From: Epinephelus fuscoguttatus
Taxonomy: Eukaryota; Chordata; Actinopteri; Perciformes; Serranidae
Length of the DNA stretch: 64,000 nt
Direction of reading: 5' to 3'
Assembly (NCBI RefSeq): GCF_011397635.1
Contig: NC_064755.1
Span: 21,435,282-21,499,281 of the forward strand
Below are positions 1,906 through 61,812 of this stretch, piece after piece. The translations under genes and the position numbers were made by a program. The notes below the pieces were generated by a model. That model made no database searches. It saw nothing but the letters and a program-made list of their open reading frames with translations, and had not been told where the DNA came from. Position 1 is the first letter of the stretch; each line of letters starts with the position of its first letter.

Positions 1906-7656
<5,751 letters not shown>

Positions 7657-11077: not shown

Positions 11078-14000
11078 ATGGCTTCATATCTGGAGGTGAG
11101 GCTGCAAACTGCATGGCGCTGGCGTGCGCGTGGATTTGTTTGGTATTTTGGTAACTTATCCACTTGTCAGGGTGTGGTTGTGCTCCCTGCACTGTAGGCC
11201 TTTTTTAATAGACGGCAGGTGGCGCGAGCTTTCCAATCAATATTTGAGTGTTGAGCGTTTGATGTCCCCCAAACCTCAGTCATGTGTGTGGGGATAAACA
11301 GGTGGTTGAGAGGCTCAGTGTTGCCAGGGGCGCGAGGGAAAGGCTTCACTGTGATTTATCTTTGGCGCACGTTATCTGTCAGTGCCAACCGGTTCCAAGA
11401 GATGTCTTCTTCTTCTTCTAGATCGCTGATGATGAGAAAGGCCACGAGCTGGACCTTTTCTGTGTCCCCAGGCACTATGAGAACGATTTGGACAAGGTGA
11501 TCATCCCCCATGGGCTCATCATGGACAGGTACAATCCACCTGCACCAAATAACGACTCATGTTTTTGTCATCTGTCTCTCCTGTCTCTCACACACACATC
11601 CACTCTGCTGCTACAGTAGTGCAGCACACTGTATTTGTTTGACAAATCACTGTAGCCCGCATCCTGAAGGCATTTGAATGTGGATTTGGGAGGCGGGGGT
11701 TCGATGTCCAGTGCAGTGCTGTGAAATGCACAGTAAGCATTTATGCTTAAGTGCAATATCATGTAAAGCATCCCCACCCTGTCCATAAGTAATGCATTCA
11801 CCACTCTGTTTTCTTTTTCTCTTTCCCTTTTTACTCTTTGTGTGTCCCAGGACAGAGCGTCTGGCCCGCGACATAATCCGGGACATGGGTGGACATCACA
11901 TCGTGGCTCTGTGTGTGCTGAAAGGCGGCTACAAATTCTTCGCAGACCTCCTGGACTACATTAAAGCGCTGAACCAGAACAGCGATAAATCAGTCCCCCT
12001 GACAGTGGATTTCATTAGGGTGAAGAGCTACTGTGTAAGCGTCCTTTGCTCATTTAATTTCCAGGAACCACTTGCGCTAATGTGAGGTGTGTGTGATACG
12101 GGGTTACAAATGAGAGCAGCCTTCTTCGGTTAGAAATGGGCCACTGCAGTAGTCAAAGTGTGGAGTCTGGATGCAGTGTACAGATATTTAAAAATGTGAT
12201 GTAGATTTGGGACAAGGAACACGTCAGAGAAGGTTAATCTAAACTGTTGTCTCATCTTCGTGTCCCCCCAGAATGACAAGTCCACAAACAACGTCAGAGT
12301 CATAGGAGGGGATGAGCTGTCCAGTCTCTCAGGCAAGGTTAGTACACTGGTGTTCATCAGGCAGACATACTACACAGTCCTGTATGGCTGTATACCTCAT
12401 CAGCTGTCCTTTGTTTTTTCTGCAGAATGTCTTGATAGTTGAGGTAAGACTTTCGTCCTTTATTCTGTTGTGTGGGAGGCATGGACAAAATCAGTCCTGC
12501 TCAGTAATTTGCCATATTGTTCACGGTGATATAAAAACATTGGCATTAGCAGAAAAGAATAATCTCCTTATGGTTGAAAAAGTCACGTCATCCCAGGGTA
12601 TACATTGTCATGTCACGATGTTGAGTCTTATTCGATTTGTTCATCTTTTTAAATTGAAACCATAGACATCATGTAAATAGAATAATAAAGATAATGTCTA
12701 TTCAGTTCTAATTTTAGAGTTCAAGTAATCGGCGATAAAACACTTAAGTCTGTAGTAAATGAAATATACTGATGTCATGCTTCTCTTTCTTTATGCCTCC
12801 TCTTTAATGTGACCACTTCCTGTGTCCCGCATCGTAAAAAGGATATCGTGGAGACAGGAAGGACGATGCAGACGCTGCTTTCCCTGCTGAGTGAATGCAA
12901 TCCCAAAATGGTTAAAGTTGTAAGGTAAGGCACCATCAGACGCAGTTTACGGCCCCGGAGGCTGAATTATAGACGTCCATTGTGACTGGCTGGTGTGTCT
13001 GCAGAGAGAGTACATAATGTAACGGTGCTCTTAGCTAATGGACGGTCTCCTTTAGGACTGTATTAGAGATGTAATGTGATGGAGGGAGGGAGCAGCTTAA
13101 GAGTTAATCTGCCGCACTATTAACTGCACTGTGGAGGTAGTGGCCGTCTCTCTGATGTAGTCCTGATAGCTGGTTAAAACAGGAAATGTGTTGAAGCAAT
13201 GTGGGTTTCCTCTGGTGCTTGCTTAAAATATAGTAGGTTTTGTTTGATCTAATGTAGATGGATAGGGTCATTTCTGTTGCTTTGGTGTTGGCCCTGTAAT
13301 CACTTAAAACCTATGTGTCCCTTGCCACGCTCCCATTGTGAGTAACAATTCTTAGCTGACCGATCTATTTAAAAGAATATTTCACCCCCTAAATGACTAT
13401 TTGGGCATTAAATAATATAATATTTTTTACTAAAACAGTCCGATTACAAACAGTGTCTTGCATGGCTAAGTGGTGTGCCTGGGCATATGCATGTGTTTTA
13501 ACTCTGCTAAAGCAAAGTGCATGCACATGTGTGTGCTTGGGTATGCACAGAGCACACTACTTGTAGACACAGATGATTATATTGAAGCGAAAATGTATGC
13601 ATGTCTTCAATGCAAGAACAATGTTTGCCTTTTTTGGATTCTCCGTTCACCATGGAGGCATGCGAGAAAAACGTGTCCTTCACAAAATTCGAGCCAGCAT
13701 GCAATGAGTAATTGATACAGAATTTGACATTTTGCGGTTAAAGTATTTTTCTAAGTAAAATTCTTAAATGGCCAATTTAAACAATGCACACATACTTACA
13801 AAGAATAAACATTTTCCCACTTAGCTATTACAGTATCAACACATGCAGATAGTTCCTCTTCCTGATGAGGTTTTGTGATATGTAACGCTGACATTTAGAG
13901 TTTTGCTTGTGGTGCTCAAAGAACTGAAGTATTACATTTCAAGAGCTCAGAGTGCCTGTTGTTCAGGATGATTTGCAGACCTCTCTCTTAACTGTTTTCA

Positions 14001-16965
14001 TTCATTTTTACACAGAGAAAAACTCATAGTCTGTACTGTGTATAAAGATGTAATTTGATATAGATCTTTACTATTGTAAAAACACAGTAGAGAGCGAGGT
14101 CTGAGATCATTCTGAACATTGTTTATGGAAAGTCATATGGCTGTTGAGTTTATCATTTTAGCAGAATAATATATATCCATCTCTTAGCTATAAGCACCTA
14201 TCTTATAGAGGGTCATGAGGGGCTGGAACCAATCCCAGCTGACACTGATGAGAGGCGCACTAACACATAGAGGCACACTTTTAACTCGCATTCACACCTA
14301 CAGGCAAGTTAGTGTCACCAACTCAGCAAACCTGCACCTGGTTACCCAAGATATTCCACCAACCTTGTTGTGAGCAGTTTCATGTAGGAACTGTTTTTCT
14401 CCTTATACACTACACTCACCAATCGTATCACTGCGCAAAAAGGAAGCATGCATTAACAGCTAGCTCACTGAGCACCACTGAACAGAAGGGGACGCCATTA
14501 ATGTTTACATCTCCTGCAGTCACAAGCACAAGCCTCTCGTCCATGAGTAGATGCACACTTCCTTCTGCATGGTGATACAGTTGATGGGTGTAGTTCAGTA
14601 GAAGGAAAATAGTACCTACATGAAACTGGTCACAACAAGGTCTGTGGATTATTTTGAGTAACCAGGTCATGAACTCTGGAAAGAGACGTTGCCGTTGAAG
14701 GCAGACATCTCTTCAGCCAATATCTTAATCACTTGGCACCTCACACCAAAATGATCTAAAAAGCACTATAAGTAAGAGTTAAAATATGTATCTTTGATTT
14801 TGGGACCCTTTAACCACTGCATCACCCCCAGAAACAATATGTCCCAGTTATTCAGAATAATCTTAGACTTTTTTATTTCTGTAAATTGAGCTCTCAGGCA
14901 GCTATTCAGTGACACTACATGGCCTGTATTCTGGTTCTACTATTGCATCCACATATGCAATATAAGCTCCACAACTGTAAACTGTGAACAGGCAATTGTT
15001 AGGCCAAGATGTTGTGCAGGTGCACCAAGACAATCCGTGCCATCTGCCAGGATAAAAACCTGCACTGAAAAGGTTGTGGTGACAATTGCTCTTTATCTCT
15101 GACATGTTAATTTCTCTTTGGTAGATTTGTTTCATATATACTCTGTTCTCTTTGTTTGTAATTCTAGTCTTCTGGTGAAGAGGACCCCGAGGAGTTCAGG
15201 GTACAGACCAGACTGTGAGTGCCTCTCTGCTCACTTCACACTAAGACATGTTATCTATGGAGTGCAGTAATGTACGGAAGTGCCAGTCACTCACATGTGT
15301 GTCTGCTTCTGTGAAGAGCTGGTGAAGTGTTATTTAATAAAGCTGTGTTTTTCATGCAGGATTAACAGTCATTTCAGGAAAATGTACTCCAAATGTAGGC
15401 GAGCACGGCACTTACACACTAACGCACGCCTGATAACCCCTCGCTCACACTGTCTCTGATTATGTAATGCTTTTAGTTGGATAATCTCTTTAAGATTGTC
15501 CCTCAAGGACAGCTGTTACTGTAAGCATTCTGACTTCCCACTACACGGCTCTGACAGCTTAAGTACAACCTCACGCAGACAGTAAAAGAGCAACATCTAG
15601 TTTAACAGGAAATGCTCCCACATCTCATTTCAGATCCGCCTGAGTTTGACTTCCACTGCACTTGGAAGTGGTTGTTTGTTTTCTTTATATGACTCACAGT
15701 GCTGGTGTCTATATTTATTTCAGACATTGGTTTTGAGGTGCCGGATGCCTTCCTAGTGGGCTACGCTTTGGACTACAATGAATACTTCAGAGATCTCAGT
15801 GTAAGTATGCTGCAGTTGATTACTTCAGATGAAAAGTATGAGGACCAACATCTTATGAAACAATAGCTGTGCTCCGATTCCATGCTACATTTTAATTGTA
15901 TATACAATGTGTACAGTATACTGATCCTCATTCTCTTTCTTTCACCAACATCTGCAATTATCATAAAGGTCCAGTGTGTGGCATAGAGGTACCTATTGGA
16001 AGAAATTGAATATAATAATATTCATAACCATTTCTAATCATCTGAAATTAAAAATGGTGTTTTTGTTACCTTAGAATGAACCATTTATATCTACATATGG
16101 AGCAGGTCCTCTTCCATGGAGTCCTCCATGTTGTTCTACAGTAGCTCAGAACAGACAAACCTTGAACAATGGTTCAAAATAGGACCATTGCCGTTTTTGC
16201 ATTGGCCACTGTAGCTCTCCGAAATGCTTGGCTCACTGGAGAAGTTTCAGTTCTGCAACCTCACCACTAGATGTCAATAAATTTTACACACTAGACCTTT
16301 GATGCTGTGCAGCTGTAAGTAGCTCCCTCATTTTGTTTTTGTTTTTTTACATTGTGAAAGAATGGCACATATTAACAGTACGCAGTCGGTATGAACACTG
16401 ACTGTTTTAAGTACACTTTATTTTTTTCACTTTTCCAGTGTGAATACACTTTATACTCCCAACAATTAGTGTGTGGTTGTAGTATTGAATTAGGACACAG
16501 CTCATATTTTGTAGCGTTTCCATTTGACACCAAATTGTTTTGGGATGATTGTAGGGGAAGCTTAAAATTATTAGTTTTTTTATTAGTTTAATATTAGTTA
16601 TCTAATTAATTAATTGATTTGATTTAATATTCATGATAAATTGTTTCACCTTATACGATGATCTCAATGCTGCTTCAAAGCCTCTAACTGTCAAAGCATT
16701 TTTCACAAAAGAGATATTGACATGTGAGAAGTATAAAAAAACACAGATATAAATATAGAAATGAATGATTGCAAAATTCAAAGCTGTTCAGAGTCTTGAT
16801 GTTGTGTCTGCTGGCTGACAGTCACACTGTCATGACTTCATGGTATACTTAAATAGAACAGAACCATATTAATATTGTGCTATTATGACGAGGCTTGGGT
16901 GATATCTATTTTTTCATATATTCATACCCTCCTGACATTTCACTGGTATATAATGGTATTTCTGT

Positions 16966-16997
<32 letters not shown>

Positions 16998-17624
16998 ACA
17001 GCCGGTGCCAGCTAGCAATATATGTTGGCACTGCTGCTGTTTTGTCCCTGCTGTTGTTGGCTGTTCTTTTACAAGTCCTGTAACGTTATCCCCACTACTC
17101 GCAGTTGCAATCTTTCTTGGGTGAACTTCTTGTTCTGCCATTGGAAACTGACCTCTGGCTGCATGTGCTGTGCACCACATTTCCTCAATTTAGCATCTCA
17201 GTATCATCTTAACAGAAAAAGTAATGTCTGTATTTTGAAGGTATCACCGTTGGGATTTCTAAATACTCTGGTATATCGTAATACTTCCAGTACTTGTTTT
17301 GAGAAATACCTATTGCGGTGAAGAAATGCTAACTCCCTGTTACTTCATTCAAATGTAATTATTAGTATTTTCCCCTTTTTTGATATTATCATTATTATTG
17401 TTTTTATTATTATTATTCGAAAAAGTCTAATTTAAACACAGGTTGATAAAAGTATCTAATTTCCAAAAACAATACAGAGGACATGACCTCAGTGCCAATC
17501 GTAGCTACAGCCAAATTCCTGGAAGATAGAGATGCATTTAACCCTGTCCTCTTCTTTATTGTTATTTGTTTCTCAGCACATCTGTATACTGAATGATCAA
17601 GCCAAGGAGAAGTACAGAGTGTGA
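11078..17624 (+). CDS. hprt1l: Hypoxanthine phosphoribosyltransferase 1-like, with altered PRPP loop
   Basis: This is a purine-salvage phosphoribosyltransferase family member, presumably cytosolic, which would convert hypoxanthine or guanine plus PRPP to IMP or GMP if active. Nine coding exons: 11078-11095, 11422-11528, 11851-12034, 12272-12337, 12426-12443, 12842-12924, 15168-15214, 15724-15800 and 17577-17624 (648 nt, 215 aa). Exons 2-9 are 107, 184, 66, 18, 83, 47, 77 and 48 nt, the sizes I know for mammalian HPRT1. Motifs seen: [56 protein letters not shown] and [17 protein letters not shown]. The PRPP-binding loop reads [11 protein letters not shown], where HPRT1 has VEDIIDTGKTM and PRTFDC1 has VEDVVGTGRTM. 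The catalytic Asp (human 137, here residue 135) is therefore Glu. Overall sequence is closer to HPRT1 than to PRTFDC1. Enzymatic activity is uncertain. Confidence 0.92.
12925..15167 (+). other. hprt1l: hprt1l intron 6, containing a foldback element
   Basis: This 2.2-kb intron carries generic repeat sequence at 14,205-14,310 ('GGTCATGAGGGGCTGGAACC...CACATTCACACC'-like, a common fish repeat motif) and the foldback copy at 14,337-14,812. The remainder shows no coding sequence. Confidence 0.55.
14337..14812. mobile_element. Foldback MITE family B, truncated copy in hprt1l intron 6
   Basis: The segment around 14,341-14,420 reappears as its reverse complement around 14,590-14,670, giving an arm of roughly 80 bases on each side of a central loop. 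The outer right end ('TCTTTGATTTTGGGACCCTTTAA') matches the end of the full copy at 34,531-35,215. The left outer end is missing. Because of the palindrome, similar-looking peptides can be read on both strands. They are not genes. Confidence 0.75.
16086..16303. repeat. Dispersed repeat family A, copy 2, hprt1l intron 8
   Basis: It matches the copy at 1-233 and the one at 42,961-43,182 over its whole length: 'CTACATATGGAG' start, 'TTGTTCTACAGTAGC', 'ATGCTTGGC' and 'CACCACTAGATG' end. It sits in the intron between hprt1l exons 8 and 9. No coding capacity. Confidence 0.75.
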
Positions 17625-19780: not shown

Positions 19781-20617
<837 letters not shown>

Positions 20618-25017: not shown

Positions 25018-28000
25018 TCACTGCTTCTGTAGGCTTTCCAGTAGGTCCTCGATTTTATTCATGTTGGACGATGCAGATATCGACGCCTGCAATTGATTCT
25101 GTAAGCTGCTCTGTATCTGGGTCTGTAGATTGGTCTGCATTGGAGTCGGCAGGCTTGTTTCTATGGTTGCCTGCAGACCAGACTGCAGAGCTGTTTGTGT
25201 GTTTGTCTGCATTGCGTTCTGTAGGCTGGTCTGCATGGCATTCTCTAAGCTGGACTGCATTTGTGCCTGGAGGGTGTTCTGTAAGCTGCTGTGCATGGTG
25301 GTCGGCATTGTGGAGGCAGCTTGGCCCATGGGCTGGTCCAACAGAGGCTGCATGTGACTGGAGTTTTGGGACTGGGCCTGAGCTGGCAGGGTGGGCCCAG
25401 AGGAATTGAGCAGCTGGGGTGAATCTGAGAGGAAGAGAAAATGGAAGAAATCACTGTGATTAAATGGTAAGTAAAGGTATTGGCAGTGGCATTCAATACA
25501 GTTCTTAACTCAGATTTACCGTACATCAGAGGTGGAGAAGACCAAAATCATCTTACCATTCTGGATGCCAAACACAAACAGGTTGGCCTGTCCTTGTGGA
25601 GCCACATTCCCACCCACAGTTGTCTGGAAAAGCTGCTCTGGGGGCTGCTGGCCAGGGTTGGCTACCACACCCACACCACCCTGTACCACAAAGATGGTCG
25701 TGCCAGGGGCTGGAGCCTGGTTGTTCAGCTCCTGTGAGCCAATAGTGCTCTGCAGGCTGGACAGAGACGTCTGTGGCAAGAACAGCTCCACGGGTTGACT
25801 GCTCGGCACGTTGCTGGAACTGGGGCCCACTTGCATTGGCTGCTGTTCTTGGAACAGGTTCTGCTGTTGGTTCTCAGAGGATGTGGAGTTGCTGCCTGAG
25901 GAGCTCTGGTCTTGGAAGGACATGGGCTCTGCTGGGTCTGGCTGGGGGATTCCAACACTAATGCTCCCCATGGGGGAAGCGCCTTGGGTCTGAGTGCTAA
26001 AGAGAATAGTTGGCGGAATAGCCTGGGGGTTTAAATCTGTGGTGCAGAGGAGGAGACCTGTTTGCTGGGGTTGGGAAAGCTGACTCTGGGGGACAGGGTT
26101 AGGCTGGGAGTGGTTTGGGATATTTTGGAACAAGGAGCCCTGCTGGCCCATTGGAAGCTGCGGTGGCTGTTGCTGGTTCTGCTGTGGAGACTGCTGCTGC
26201 TCCATAGGGGTGCTCTGTTGCTGCATTTGGGAGAGCTGAGTTTGGGGTTGGTTCTGAAACATTGCAACAGATTGGGACTGGCTGTTAGATGTCTCCATGG
26301 AGGCGATGAATGCCAGCTGCTGTGGCTGTTGTTGGGGCTGGGGGTTTGGGGACAGGTATAGGGTTGACCCTGTAGGCTGCTGCTCTGAGTTCAGACTGCC
26401 ACTGGCAAGAACAATCTGCGCGTTCTGAAGCAGGGCAGCCTGGACCTGCTGTTGGGAGCCCTGGGTCTCAGCCAGGGGCCTGGGCGATTGAAAGAGCTGC
26501 TGTGGGGGAGATGTGTGGGACGGAGGCTGTGTTGGGAAGCTGGTTTGGATGGTGAGCAGCTCTCCAGCCTGTTGAAGGAGGGACACTGGCTGCTGTATTT
26601 GTGGGGAGGAGTGGATCTGGGGCTGAAGCAACTCAGCCTGAAGGTGTTGCTGTAAATTCTCCAACACCTGCTGCTCTTGCAGTTGTTGTTGCTGTTGTAA
26701 GTTGCTCAGCGCCTGATTCTGCTGCTGCTGTTGTAGCTGATGTTGCTGTAAATTGGTAAGTATTTGATTTTGTTGTTGCTGATCCTGAAGTTGGATGTTG
26801 TTAAGGACTTGCTGTTGCTGATTTTGTTGCAGCTGTTGTTGTTGCTGTTGAATATTCTCCATGATTTGTTGCTGGTCTTGTGGCTGTAATATAAGTTGTT
26901 GTTGGATCTGCATGTTGCCAAGAACCTGCTGCTGTTGCTGCTGTAAGTTTTGCTGCTGTTGTTGATGCTGAAGGTTACCAAGGATCTGCTGTTGTTGCTG
27001 CAGTTGCTGATGCTGCTGAAACTGTTGCTGTATTTGTTGTTGTTGTTGCTGTTGTATCTGTTGTTGCTGTATCTGTTGCTGTTGTTGTATCTGTTGTTGT
27101 TGTTGTTGTATCTGTTGTTGCTGTATCTGTTGCTGTTGTTGTATCTGCTGTTGCTGCTGTATCTGCTGTTGCTGTTGTTGTATCTGTTGTTGCTGTTGCA
27201 TCTGCAGCTGTTGCTGTGGCGATAGCGAATTATCTGTGGTTCCCAATCTAAGGCTATTCATGTTCTCCTGGACGTGCTGCTGCAGGGAGTCTGCAGAGGG
27301 AGTGGGGCTGTACAGCACAGAGTTCAGCTGCTGCTGGGCTACAGCCGCCTCTATAACCTGCTGGAGCGTGGTGTTACCTCCAGCCTGTAGCTCCCTTACT
27401 GCCCTCTCCAGCTGTGCAACCCCTTCCTGGGGGAATAAGGGAACCTGTGACTGCTGTGGCTGAGAGGGAGTTGCTATCTGGGGCATGGCCACAACTACAA
27501 CTCCTTGGCTATTATTGGAACTCTCAGGCGGTATGCTGTCCTGAGGGTCTCTGAGGAATTGCTGCGGGACTTCTGGTGTCACAGGGGGGATTGTAGTATC
27601 ACCCGACACTGGGAAGGAGGTTGTGGGGGCAATGTCTTGCTTTTGCATGGTGCTGAGAGACTCCAGGCTGGGGAAGACAGGTGGCGCCTGGGGAAGCTCC
27701 ACATCTTCAGGTTGTAGGGGCATTGGGCTCTGAAAGGATTCTCCACCTGAATGAGGACTAGAGCTGAGCTCCAGTGTCTGCTGCACCGCAACAAGAGGGT
27801 CAGGGGAGGGCTGAGAAAATAAAGGAAACAAGAGTGTTACCTGTAACTGAAGTTCTGAAGTAGATATTTCTGTTCTGCCTTCTTGAAAATGACTGGTATC
27901 TTACCTTGAAGACGTCTGTGGCTGGTGGATTGCTGGACACTTCCATTGGTGTGTCCTCTTGCCGTTTGGAAGGCGGAGCAGAGCTGTCAGTTTGCTCAGA

Positions 28001-31000
28001 AGATAAAGATTTGATCTGGCCATCAAATATACATGTCTTGACCAGGGAAGGTCCCTCTGTCTTTATTGTTGGGACATTTGAGTTATCAGCTGTGGGTAAG
28101 AGTGGAAACAAAGGATAGCTTTGTGTCTTTCAGAAGAACAAGTGCTTATAATGATGTTTTGTGATTTAAGTCATTGATGAAACCTGGCATTCACACAACC
28201 AATATGTTGATTCAGACAACCAATGCAGGTTAAGTTCTCCCTCATATAATATGGTCACAGTATCTTAAAAATGGGATTACCACACACATAGACTGGTAGC
28301 AGTACCTGAGTCTGGAGTGTAGGTGAAGGGCTGGGCGTCATGTGATCTACCAGCATTGGTCATCACGAAGATTCCCACAGAAACGGGAGAAGAGATTGAC
28401 AGGTTGTGAAACGGAGGGACTGTCACTATTAAATGGTTCTGAAAAACATTGGAGATCCAAACGGGCAATCACATTTTCAGTAAAATCTCTTAAAGAATAT
28501 GCTCAATGAAAGCAGGTGGGTTTGATTAATTCAAGGAGAAACAAGAGTATACACATCATTCAGGCGCATCTACCTGATGGAAAAGGTCCATGTCAATCTT
28601 TGCTTCAGCTTGCCAGGAATTATCATCTGCAAATAAAACAACATATGTTTCTTCTTCTGCCCATCAGAGGATTACAAGCAGAAACCTTTATCCAAACAAA
28701 TTACACTGATATACAACACTGACAACACCAAGCTGGCCACACTACCTGCAATATTCTCCTGGAAAATAACTTTGGTTCCTTTGAGGAAGTTCTTTCCGAT
28801 GATAAACACTTCCTCTCCTCCTCTCACTGAGCAGCTGTGAAGACTCTTCTTCAGGATCTCTGGCACTCCTGCTGGCTGGGCTGGAGAATGAAAGAAGAGT
28901 CAAGGGATCAAAACTCACATGACATCTGGGCTAATGTTTACCAGAGGGCATGTGGAAGACAATAACAAAAAGAAAGTTCCACAGTCTGATCATCCTAAAT
29001 GCTATGTTTGACGAAAGCCTCACTCCAAACATCACTGGAAACATAGTCTCATAAAGACCTATGGCTCTTTGTATTTCTTTAGACCAGTCACAATCGCCTT
29101 GGGCAGCACTAAGCCCAGGATGCAGCAATGATGCTCTTGCAAAATACTGTCTGGGGGGAAACTGGTTATGGTTGAGAGGTGAGTGCTGGCATTAAAATGA
29201 GTAAATACTTGGAAAAGAAAATGCCACATAAAAGATTAAAAAACATCTTAGCATGTGGGTTGCTAGCTTGGATGTTGTTGTTGTCATTTCACACACAGCC
29301 CTAAATGTGCATAAAGGTCTTGCTATTCATGACTAGTCACATGTTGTGTCAGAGATTTTGAAAATGGTAACATGCTTTTAAGTAGGCCAATGACAGGTTT
29401 ATACCCACAGTCTACATTCTGTGAGCCAGACTACTGGAAACACAACTTTCCCAGCATTTAGCCTCATGTGTCCTGGCAGTGGCTGTTACCTTTGTAGCTT
29501 TAAACTGATGTTTTCTGTTTTTTTGGTTGATTGTGTTCATATTGTGCCTGAGCTACTTACTGCAGAGGATGGGTGATGAGGTGGCCTGTAGAGTAAGGAC
29601 TGATCCATCAGGTTGGGGGATGTTGACTCTGAAGGCCAGCCTGGCACGTGTGCTCTTCTTTTTGGACCCTGCCACACCAATACGTGCCTCCACATCTGCA
29701 TTACGCAGCTTCAAAATCCCTACACGGTCCACCCTGTAGGAACACGAAAGAATGGGAAATACATGACAAGCACGCTAAGTACTTGTTCAACGTAATCACA
29801 GTCTAAGTATTAACTGACCCAGAATTATGCACAGAGAATAACCCCTTACGCGAGTGTCATGTCATTGCTGGGCTCCAGAGGGATCTCAATAACAGTGGTA
29901 CCCTCTATGTCCACCTCCTTGCAGGCTGTGGTGTTGCGTCCTGTCACTCTGCATGCCTGGTAGAAACCGTGAGGCTTTACTCTGCCTGCATCATTTGCCA
30001 CAAACACCTGCAGCACAACTGGTTCATTCACGCCTTCCAACTGGGGACAAAAATAGAAACTGAGTGTAAACAACTTAAATCGACCCCCACTTACAATAGA
30101 AATCGTAACATTATAAAAGACTAAAGTTTTAAAACCAATGCACACTGGTCATGGAGTAATTTCCTGATCCATACTAAGTGATGCTTCCTTACTAAAGCAT
30201 TCATGAGAGTGCGCACTAAAACCATGCATACTGGAAGGTGCAATATAATGTGTGGATGCTGGCCAGATTTGCCAGAAAGAGATCTTTTTTTCTCCTTGGA
30301 TGGATTTTACAAAAATAGACAAAGGGAATACACTGCATAAGGGAAATGTTCAATTAGTACATCTTTACTGTTATCATACACGTGCTCTGATGAATTTCGG
30401 GGCAATTTCGTTGAGCGCTTCATACTTTACACACATTAACAGCTGGGAGCAGCTCAGCACAGCCACCGTTTTATCTGCTGGCCACTAAGCAGCCCCAGTG
30501 GAGCAGTCAAGGGTTAAGTGCCTTATTGATAAATCAAGGACTGGCACTATTCCTTCACTTCCTTTCCCAAATGTATCAGTAACAGGTAAAATTACTATTG
30601 GATGGTCTAGCGTTTAATCGTTTGCCCTCTTAAAATGGAGTCTGTTGTTGATTTGTTACACAGAATATAGCAGGCTACCCACTGAAGCTTTTGAAGAAGC
30701 TAAAAACAAACATGCTGATGGTTATTGGTTGGTGAGTGAATGCTTCTCATGTGTCTGAACAGGCATGAGCATTCTCTTGTGGCGCATGGTGCCCCACACT
30801 CTATGTCCTGTGTATTTTTGGCCTTATTCAGTCACTTCCAACTTAGGTGTTAATATTTCTCCTGTGTCAAGAAGCAGCTGGTGGCCCTCTTTGTCACACC
30901 TTGACAGTGGGGAATCCCTGTTGTGTGCGGTCTTTGACAGAACCTCTGCTGCCCTCAGTCAGATAGCGAGCTCTGTGCTGGGTCTCTGGCTGCACCAGGA

Positions 31001-45899: not shown

Positions 45900-60991
<15,092 letters not shown>

Positions 60992-61812
60992 GTAAGTGGC
61001 AGTCAGACCTTCAAGAACCCTTCAGTTGTGCTGGTATAAGTCTGGTGATGTCAACAGTATCCATGAATAGATAAAAACCAACAATGAATGGCTGCTACTG
61101 ACAAGTAGGGATTGGCAATATGGACACAATCTTCTATCAAGAAGTATGTAATTTTATATTACAGTAAGGGTATATTGCAATGCAAATATCGTTTTGTCAA
61201 TTTCAGTTAAGAAATGGTTTAAAATAACCATACCGTACTTCATCACACTGAGTTATTTTCTTCTTTTTAAATGTTTTTTTACATACAAAACCCCCCCCCA
61301 ACTGCCTCATATGTGACACAGAGGGAGTTAAAAACAGAAGACTCAAAACAGTAAAACTAAAGGCCTAGGCACACCAAACCAACATCAAAGAACTAGTGGC
61401 AACAAAGGCCAACTGTTGGGTCACCTCATGTCCCCTGCTTCTCGGGCAAAAAGTTGCACTTGAACACACTGCAAAAACTAGAGCCAACAACCAAATAGCA
61501 TGGATGTTTTGCACCTGCATGAAAGAAAATAACTCTCCATACCACCAGGCAGCAATAGTCTGTATTTGTCTTCCAAAAAGGAAAACTGGAAGACCAACAG
61601 GACGGATTAAAGATGCTTATTAGTCAGTTCGCACATTAACAACATAACCTGATGTTTATCGACAGTTACAAACTGTTTCTGCTGAATATCTCAATGGCCA
61701 AAAAAGTCTTAACAAACAAGTTTGTTTCAATGTCACGCGTTCTTGACTTTAGCTGTTTGTTTGCTTTCCTCACTCCTGTTTCTCTTCTCATAAACTGAGC
61801 TCAACTGGTAAT

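Follow-up and report, generated by a model that had tools for sequence, protein, structure and literature searches.

In HPRT, Asp137 is often termed the general base, and a gene of this family in the window (the whole 64,000-nucleotide stretch of Epinephelus fuscoguttatus DNA that was analyzed) encodes glutamate at the corresponding position. Does this exchange mark a copy that has lost its function, or can glutamate serve in a working enzyme? An earlier note on this DNA had proposed a paralog with altered, weak, or regulatory function; the paralog has stood up, whereas the step from glutamate to a weak or regulatory role has not. Judged by sequence comparison, the gene is likely a third-group vertebrate HPRT paralog that is predicted to encode a catalytically competent purine salvage phosphoribosyltransferase.

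The gene is intact and extends from position 11078 to 17624 of the window on the forward strand. It consists of nine exons encoding 215 amino acids in a frame that is open throughout, and 8/8 introns are of the GT-AG type. The following features were assigned:

11078 to 11095, + strand: exon 1 (MASYLE), from its GT donor and open frame
11422 to 11528, + strand: exon 2, from the gene model
11851 to 12034, + strand: exon 3 (LKGGYKF, SYC), from the gene model and the alignment with human HPRT1
12272 to 12337, + strand: exon 4 with the mobile loop NDKSTNN, from the gene model and alignment
12426 to 12443, + strand: exon 5 (NVLIVE), from the gene model
12842 to 12924, + strand: exon 6 (83 nt) with the PRPP loop residues DIVETGRTM, from the gene model and alignment
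12851 to 12853, + strand: codon GAG for Glu135, the counterpart of human HPRT1 Asp137 in the alignment
15168 to 15214, + strand: exon 7 (LLVKRTPRS), from the gene model
15724 to 15800, + strand: exon 8, from the gene model and C-terminal comparison
17577 to 17624, + strand: exon 9, ending in EKYRV and the stop codon, from the gene model and C-terminal comparison

The PRPP loop is split by an intron, with V-E closing exon 5 and D-I-V-E-T-G-R-T-M starting exon 6, and the interval to which the earlier note had assigned the site is exactly this 83-nt exon. The pyrimidine tract of the exon 6 acceptor, gcatcgtaaaaag, is poor, and splicing at this junction was therefore inferred from homology, not from RNA. 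A pseudogene was rejected because the open reading frame is intact and the introns are GT-AG. A second, tandem HPRT copy within the window was rejected as well, since 7/7 tblastn matches lie inside the one gene.

Alignment with human HPRT1 placed Asp137 of its VEDIIDTGKTM loop opposite Glu135 of the window protein, in agreement with the claim of glutamate at the catalytic Asp position of the exon 5-6 junction. The GAG codon is a single base away from an Asp codon. Human PRTFDC1 (PDB 2jbh) does carry Gly at this position, as had been proposed, and the predicted replacement of QSTGD by KSTNN in the mobile loop was recovered in the same alignment (NDKSTNN in the window protein versus NDQSTGD in human HPRT1). 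Residues K68, S103, Y104, E133, D134, T138, G139, T141, K165, D193, and R199 are the same as in human HPRT1. The protein scores 196.5 bits against TIGR01203 (HGPRTase), which is above the curated cut-off of 150; the E-D of the PRPP loop, Lys165, Asp193, Arg199, and the vertebrate Lys68 are all present, and Glu135 takes the place of the Asp that faces N7. In human HGPRT, the distance from Asp137 OD2 to the purine N7 is 3.6 Å according to a passage of PMC2228302. Glutamate at this site in HPRT1L is not mentioned in the passages covered by a literature search (including PMC3144895, PMC2228302, PMC3706446, PMC12841621, and PMC6783271), and the loop strings VEDIVETG and VEDIIETG do not occur in the papers of this search.

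Glutamate at this position was then followed in other organisms by scanning prokaryote species genomes for the motif V-E-D-I-[V/I/M]-E-T-G-x-T. The scan yielded 105 stretches, 101 of which are HPRT homologs; four open reading frames without phmmer match (L007, L070, L089, and L104) were set aside. The homologs are distant from the window protein (50.5 to 106.1 bits), and all of the 26 on which NCBIfam was run (26/101) match TIGR01203 at E <= 0.001. After 13 of the 101 had been dropped for length or unknown residues, a residue table of 88 full-length proteins was obtained, in which Y104, E133, D134, T138, G139, T141, K165, D193, and R199 are each found in 88/88 and S103 in 87/88; at the position of Lys68, just 36/88 have K. 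Genes for a TilS-like protein and FtsH flank the Glu-HPRT gene in the Salinicoccus and Lactobacillus loci, both of which were run on Pfam. Seven proteins from Prevotella/Prevotellaceae (L038, L045, L048, L061, L067, L082, and L085) have frames of 369 to 480 amino acids, which hints at a fused second domain, and the one from Streptococcus sciuri (L090/L184) lies in a 610-amino-acid open frame, perhaps joined to the upstream gene.

In 14/14 Glu-motif genomes searched (10 isolates and 4 MAGs, by title), a single match exceeded the HGPRTase cut-off and its loop contained Glu, with the count covering matches over the TIGR01203 cut-off only. As these enzymes pass the cut-off with Glu in the loop, membership in the family does not depend on Asp at the site facing N7. 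Within the family of Salinicoccus hispanicus, 32/33 genomes have Glu and one (G015) has Asp. A looser loop motif, which matched once in each genome and was counted by eye from matches not individually confirmed as HPRT, gave 134 Glu and 16 Asp in the order of this species (n = 150). Among genomes sampled from the phylum to which G007 belongs, counted in the same way, 42/118 had the motif, the 43 matches comprising 41 Asp and 2 Glu; one of the two Glu is G007 itself, the center genome picked for its Glu. Scans of viral_contigs revealed 50 stretches with Asp and 6 with Glu, counted as motif matches irrespective of HPRT identity, and a search of this collection with the window protein gave one weak locus. 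Thus, Asp is the rule, and Glu is a replacement that recurs and, in one order, predominates. Since G015 and 15 other genomes of this order keep Asp, the change between the two residues could be placed on a tree. The weak or regulatory function that had been read from Glu is left unsupported by the 14/14 genomes whose sole over-cut-off HGPRTase carries it and by its share of 134/150 in one order.

Structures with Glu in the loop are also available. In PDB 1i14, an HPRT of T. cruzi, VEDIVET instead of VEDIVDT is the sole difference from the wild type over 80 aligned residues, and we take this change to be engineered in the laboratory. Canyuk and colleagues reportedly made the T. cruzi Asp-to-Glu change in 2001, found both Glu and Gln to be functional, and took this to mean that the site can do without a general base. 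The loop of PDB 4rqa, presumably the HPRT of S. aureus, reads LIIEDILETGTT, again with Glu. For purified S. aureus HPRT, PMC6783271 gives relative activities of 0.31 at 25 μM ppGpp and 0.48 at 25 μM pppGpp and flags preparations without activity; the reporting of such values implies that activity was measurable. Together, 1i14, 4rqa, and the activity of the S. aureus enzyme argue against Glu as a sign of lost function. This corrects a tempting inference, as each of the tested bacteria has one enzyme of HGPRTase grade, and Glu is its natural residue.

For the window gene, these comparisons make a working enzyme appear more likely than a dead one. The longer side chain of Glu135 would still reach N7 of hypoxanthine or guanine, either directly or via water, and would stabilize it during formation of the glycosidic bond; IMP and GMP would be made from PRPP with modestly changed kinetics. 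Counted against a competent enzyme are the mobile loop, which is altered too, and the prevalence of Asp outside the Glu order. Furthermore, the tolerance of Glu in bacteria need not extend to the vertebrate frame, because Lys68 is not kept and the proteins are distant, and Glu135 could be the mark of a decaying copy.

The same two departures, i.e., the replaced catalytic Asp and the changed mobile loop, would also be expected of a PRTFDC1-like weak or regulatory phosphoribosyltransferase that binds PRPP or a nucleotide, turns over poorly, and hetero-oligomerizes with HPRT1. PRTFDC1 provides a precedent with its Gly at the site and, as Welin and colleagues are said to have described in 2010, its low activity, and the last 29 residues of the window protein prefer PRTFDC1 (48.6 versus 42.3 bits for HPRT1). 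Nevertheless, we consider this explanation rather unlikely, as the protein as a whole is nearer to HPRT1, its best PDB match (382.6 versus 300.4 bits for PRTFDC1), and has Glu instead of Gly. Glu retains the carboxylate, while the Gly of PRTFDC1 has the side chain removed, and Glu is natural both in the sole over-cut-off HPRTs and in the motif of one order. An HPRT1-like overall score combined with a PRTFDC1-like C terminus would fit the mix of characters of an old third paralog.

The assignment as a separate paralog also draws on the genomic surroundings, in which the following neighbors were identified:

6385 to 6651, + strand: piece of PSMD7 (26S proteasome non-ATPase subunit 7), upstream neighbor (E 9.1e-37; Pfam MitMem_reg)
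19781 to 20617, + strand: NUDT7, three exons joined, C-terminal SKL (E 9.3e-57 to NUDT7 chain 9rtp; NUDIX)
28675 to 30148, - strand: part of NFAT5, with exons at 28675 to 28899 (RHD_dimer) and 29849 to 30148 (1imh, E 1.6e-33)
50299 to 61036, + strand: WWOX-like SDR gene, two exons within 50299 to 50556 and 60785 to 61036 (adh_short E 1.5e-8 for the two exons joined by hand, either frame singly being without Pfam match)

The name WWOX for the SDR gene is our assumption, made by eye. Beside the NFAT5 exons, at 25519 to 27900 (- strand), lies a 794-amino-acid open frame with long interrupted polyglutamine tracts and no Pfam match, which by eye also belongs to NFAT5. A DDE_3 transposase remnant, Tc1-like by eye, is found at 48462 to 48866 (- strand). 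Human PSMD7, NUDT7, NFAT5, and WWOX are located on 16q, HPRT1 on Xq, and PRTFDC1 on 10p. On this map, the four neighbors set the locus apart from those of both HPRT1 and PRTFDC1, as would be expected of HPRT1L.

A search of the species' own genome (1.05 Gb, 26 contigs) gave 19 matches in five places, one of them the window itself on C4. The others are:

G000:C9:33462508-33466345: HPRT-like locus, exon 3 at 85%
G000:C15:34276231-34296734: divergent HPRT-like locus, 65%
G000:C7:31719571-31719744: HPRT-like locus, 74%, one exon only
G000:C21:13136703-13148411: divergent HPRT-like locus, exon 3 at 51%

The proposal of a separate paralog is borne out by 74.5% identity to human HPRT1 (155/208 residues), the synteny of the 16q type, and the four further HPRT-like loci. 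The gene probably belongs to the third vertebrate HPRT group, named HPRT1L. Keebaugh and colleagues reportedly divided the vertebrate family in 2007 into three groups, namely HPRT1, PRTFDC1, and HPRT1L. A reconstruction of the HPRT family is cited in PMC3144895, in passages that do not name HPRT1L.

That the gene is instead the HPRT1 ortholog of this species, in whose lineage Asp gave way to Glu, might be read from human HPRT1 being the best PDB match, but the synteny of the 16q type differs from that of HPRT1 and the locus on C9 is a candidate for HPRT1 as well, which makes this very improbable. Equally improbable is a base error or private allele in a species whose normal codon is GAC or GAT: one base would suffice, yet the assembly comprises 26 contigs for 1.05 Gb and the remainder of the gene is intact.

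PMC3706446 describes zebrafish hprt1l and prtfdc1 as enriched in iridophores, with values of 21.31 in iridophores versus 0.25 in melanocytes for hprt1l and 309.88 versus 1.56 for prtfdc1, the column order being deduced from the 198-fold enrichment stated for prtfdc1. By analogy, this expression of hprt1l suggests a role in guanine metabolism. It is conceivable, though a long shot, that all fish HPRT1L carry Glu135 as a fixed residue and that it adapts the enzyme to the way iridophores handle guanine. It might, for instance, favor the pyrophosphorolysis of GMP to guanine, and HPRT1L would in this way contribute to the guanine crystals of reflective skin. Fixation in HPRT1L, if true, would make Glu a marker of the group and a possible link to the use of guanine in iridophores. 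The window gene also lends itself to asking, in a vertebrate enzyme, whether a base is required at exactly the position of Asp137.

Compared with known systems, the likeness to the Asp137Glu HPRT of T. cruzi (1i14) lies in the VEDIVET loop of a distant homolog that is presumably laboratory-made. The bacterial Glu-HPRTs (Salinicoccus, Jeotgalicoccus, and others; 4rqa) have the V-E-D-I-x-E-T-G loop of the window protein and share Tyr104, Glu133, Asp134, Lys165, Asp193, and Arg199 with it in 88/88 of the motif set, but they are short and distant, with Lys68 in 36/88 only. Human PRTFDC1 (2jbh) resembles it in the C terminus HIC...KEKYRV and in TGRTM and differs by Gly at the site and a lower overall score. 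Human HPRT1 (PDB 1bzy and others) shares 155/208 residues and the compared catalytic residues, and is set apart by the change of Asp137 to Glu, that of QSTGD to KSTNN, and the synteny. Vertebrate HPRT1L, to which the gene is tentatively assigned, is likewise of the HPRT1 type and distinct from both HPRT1 and PRTFDC1.
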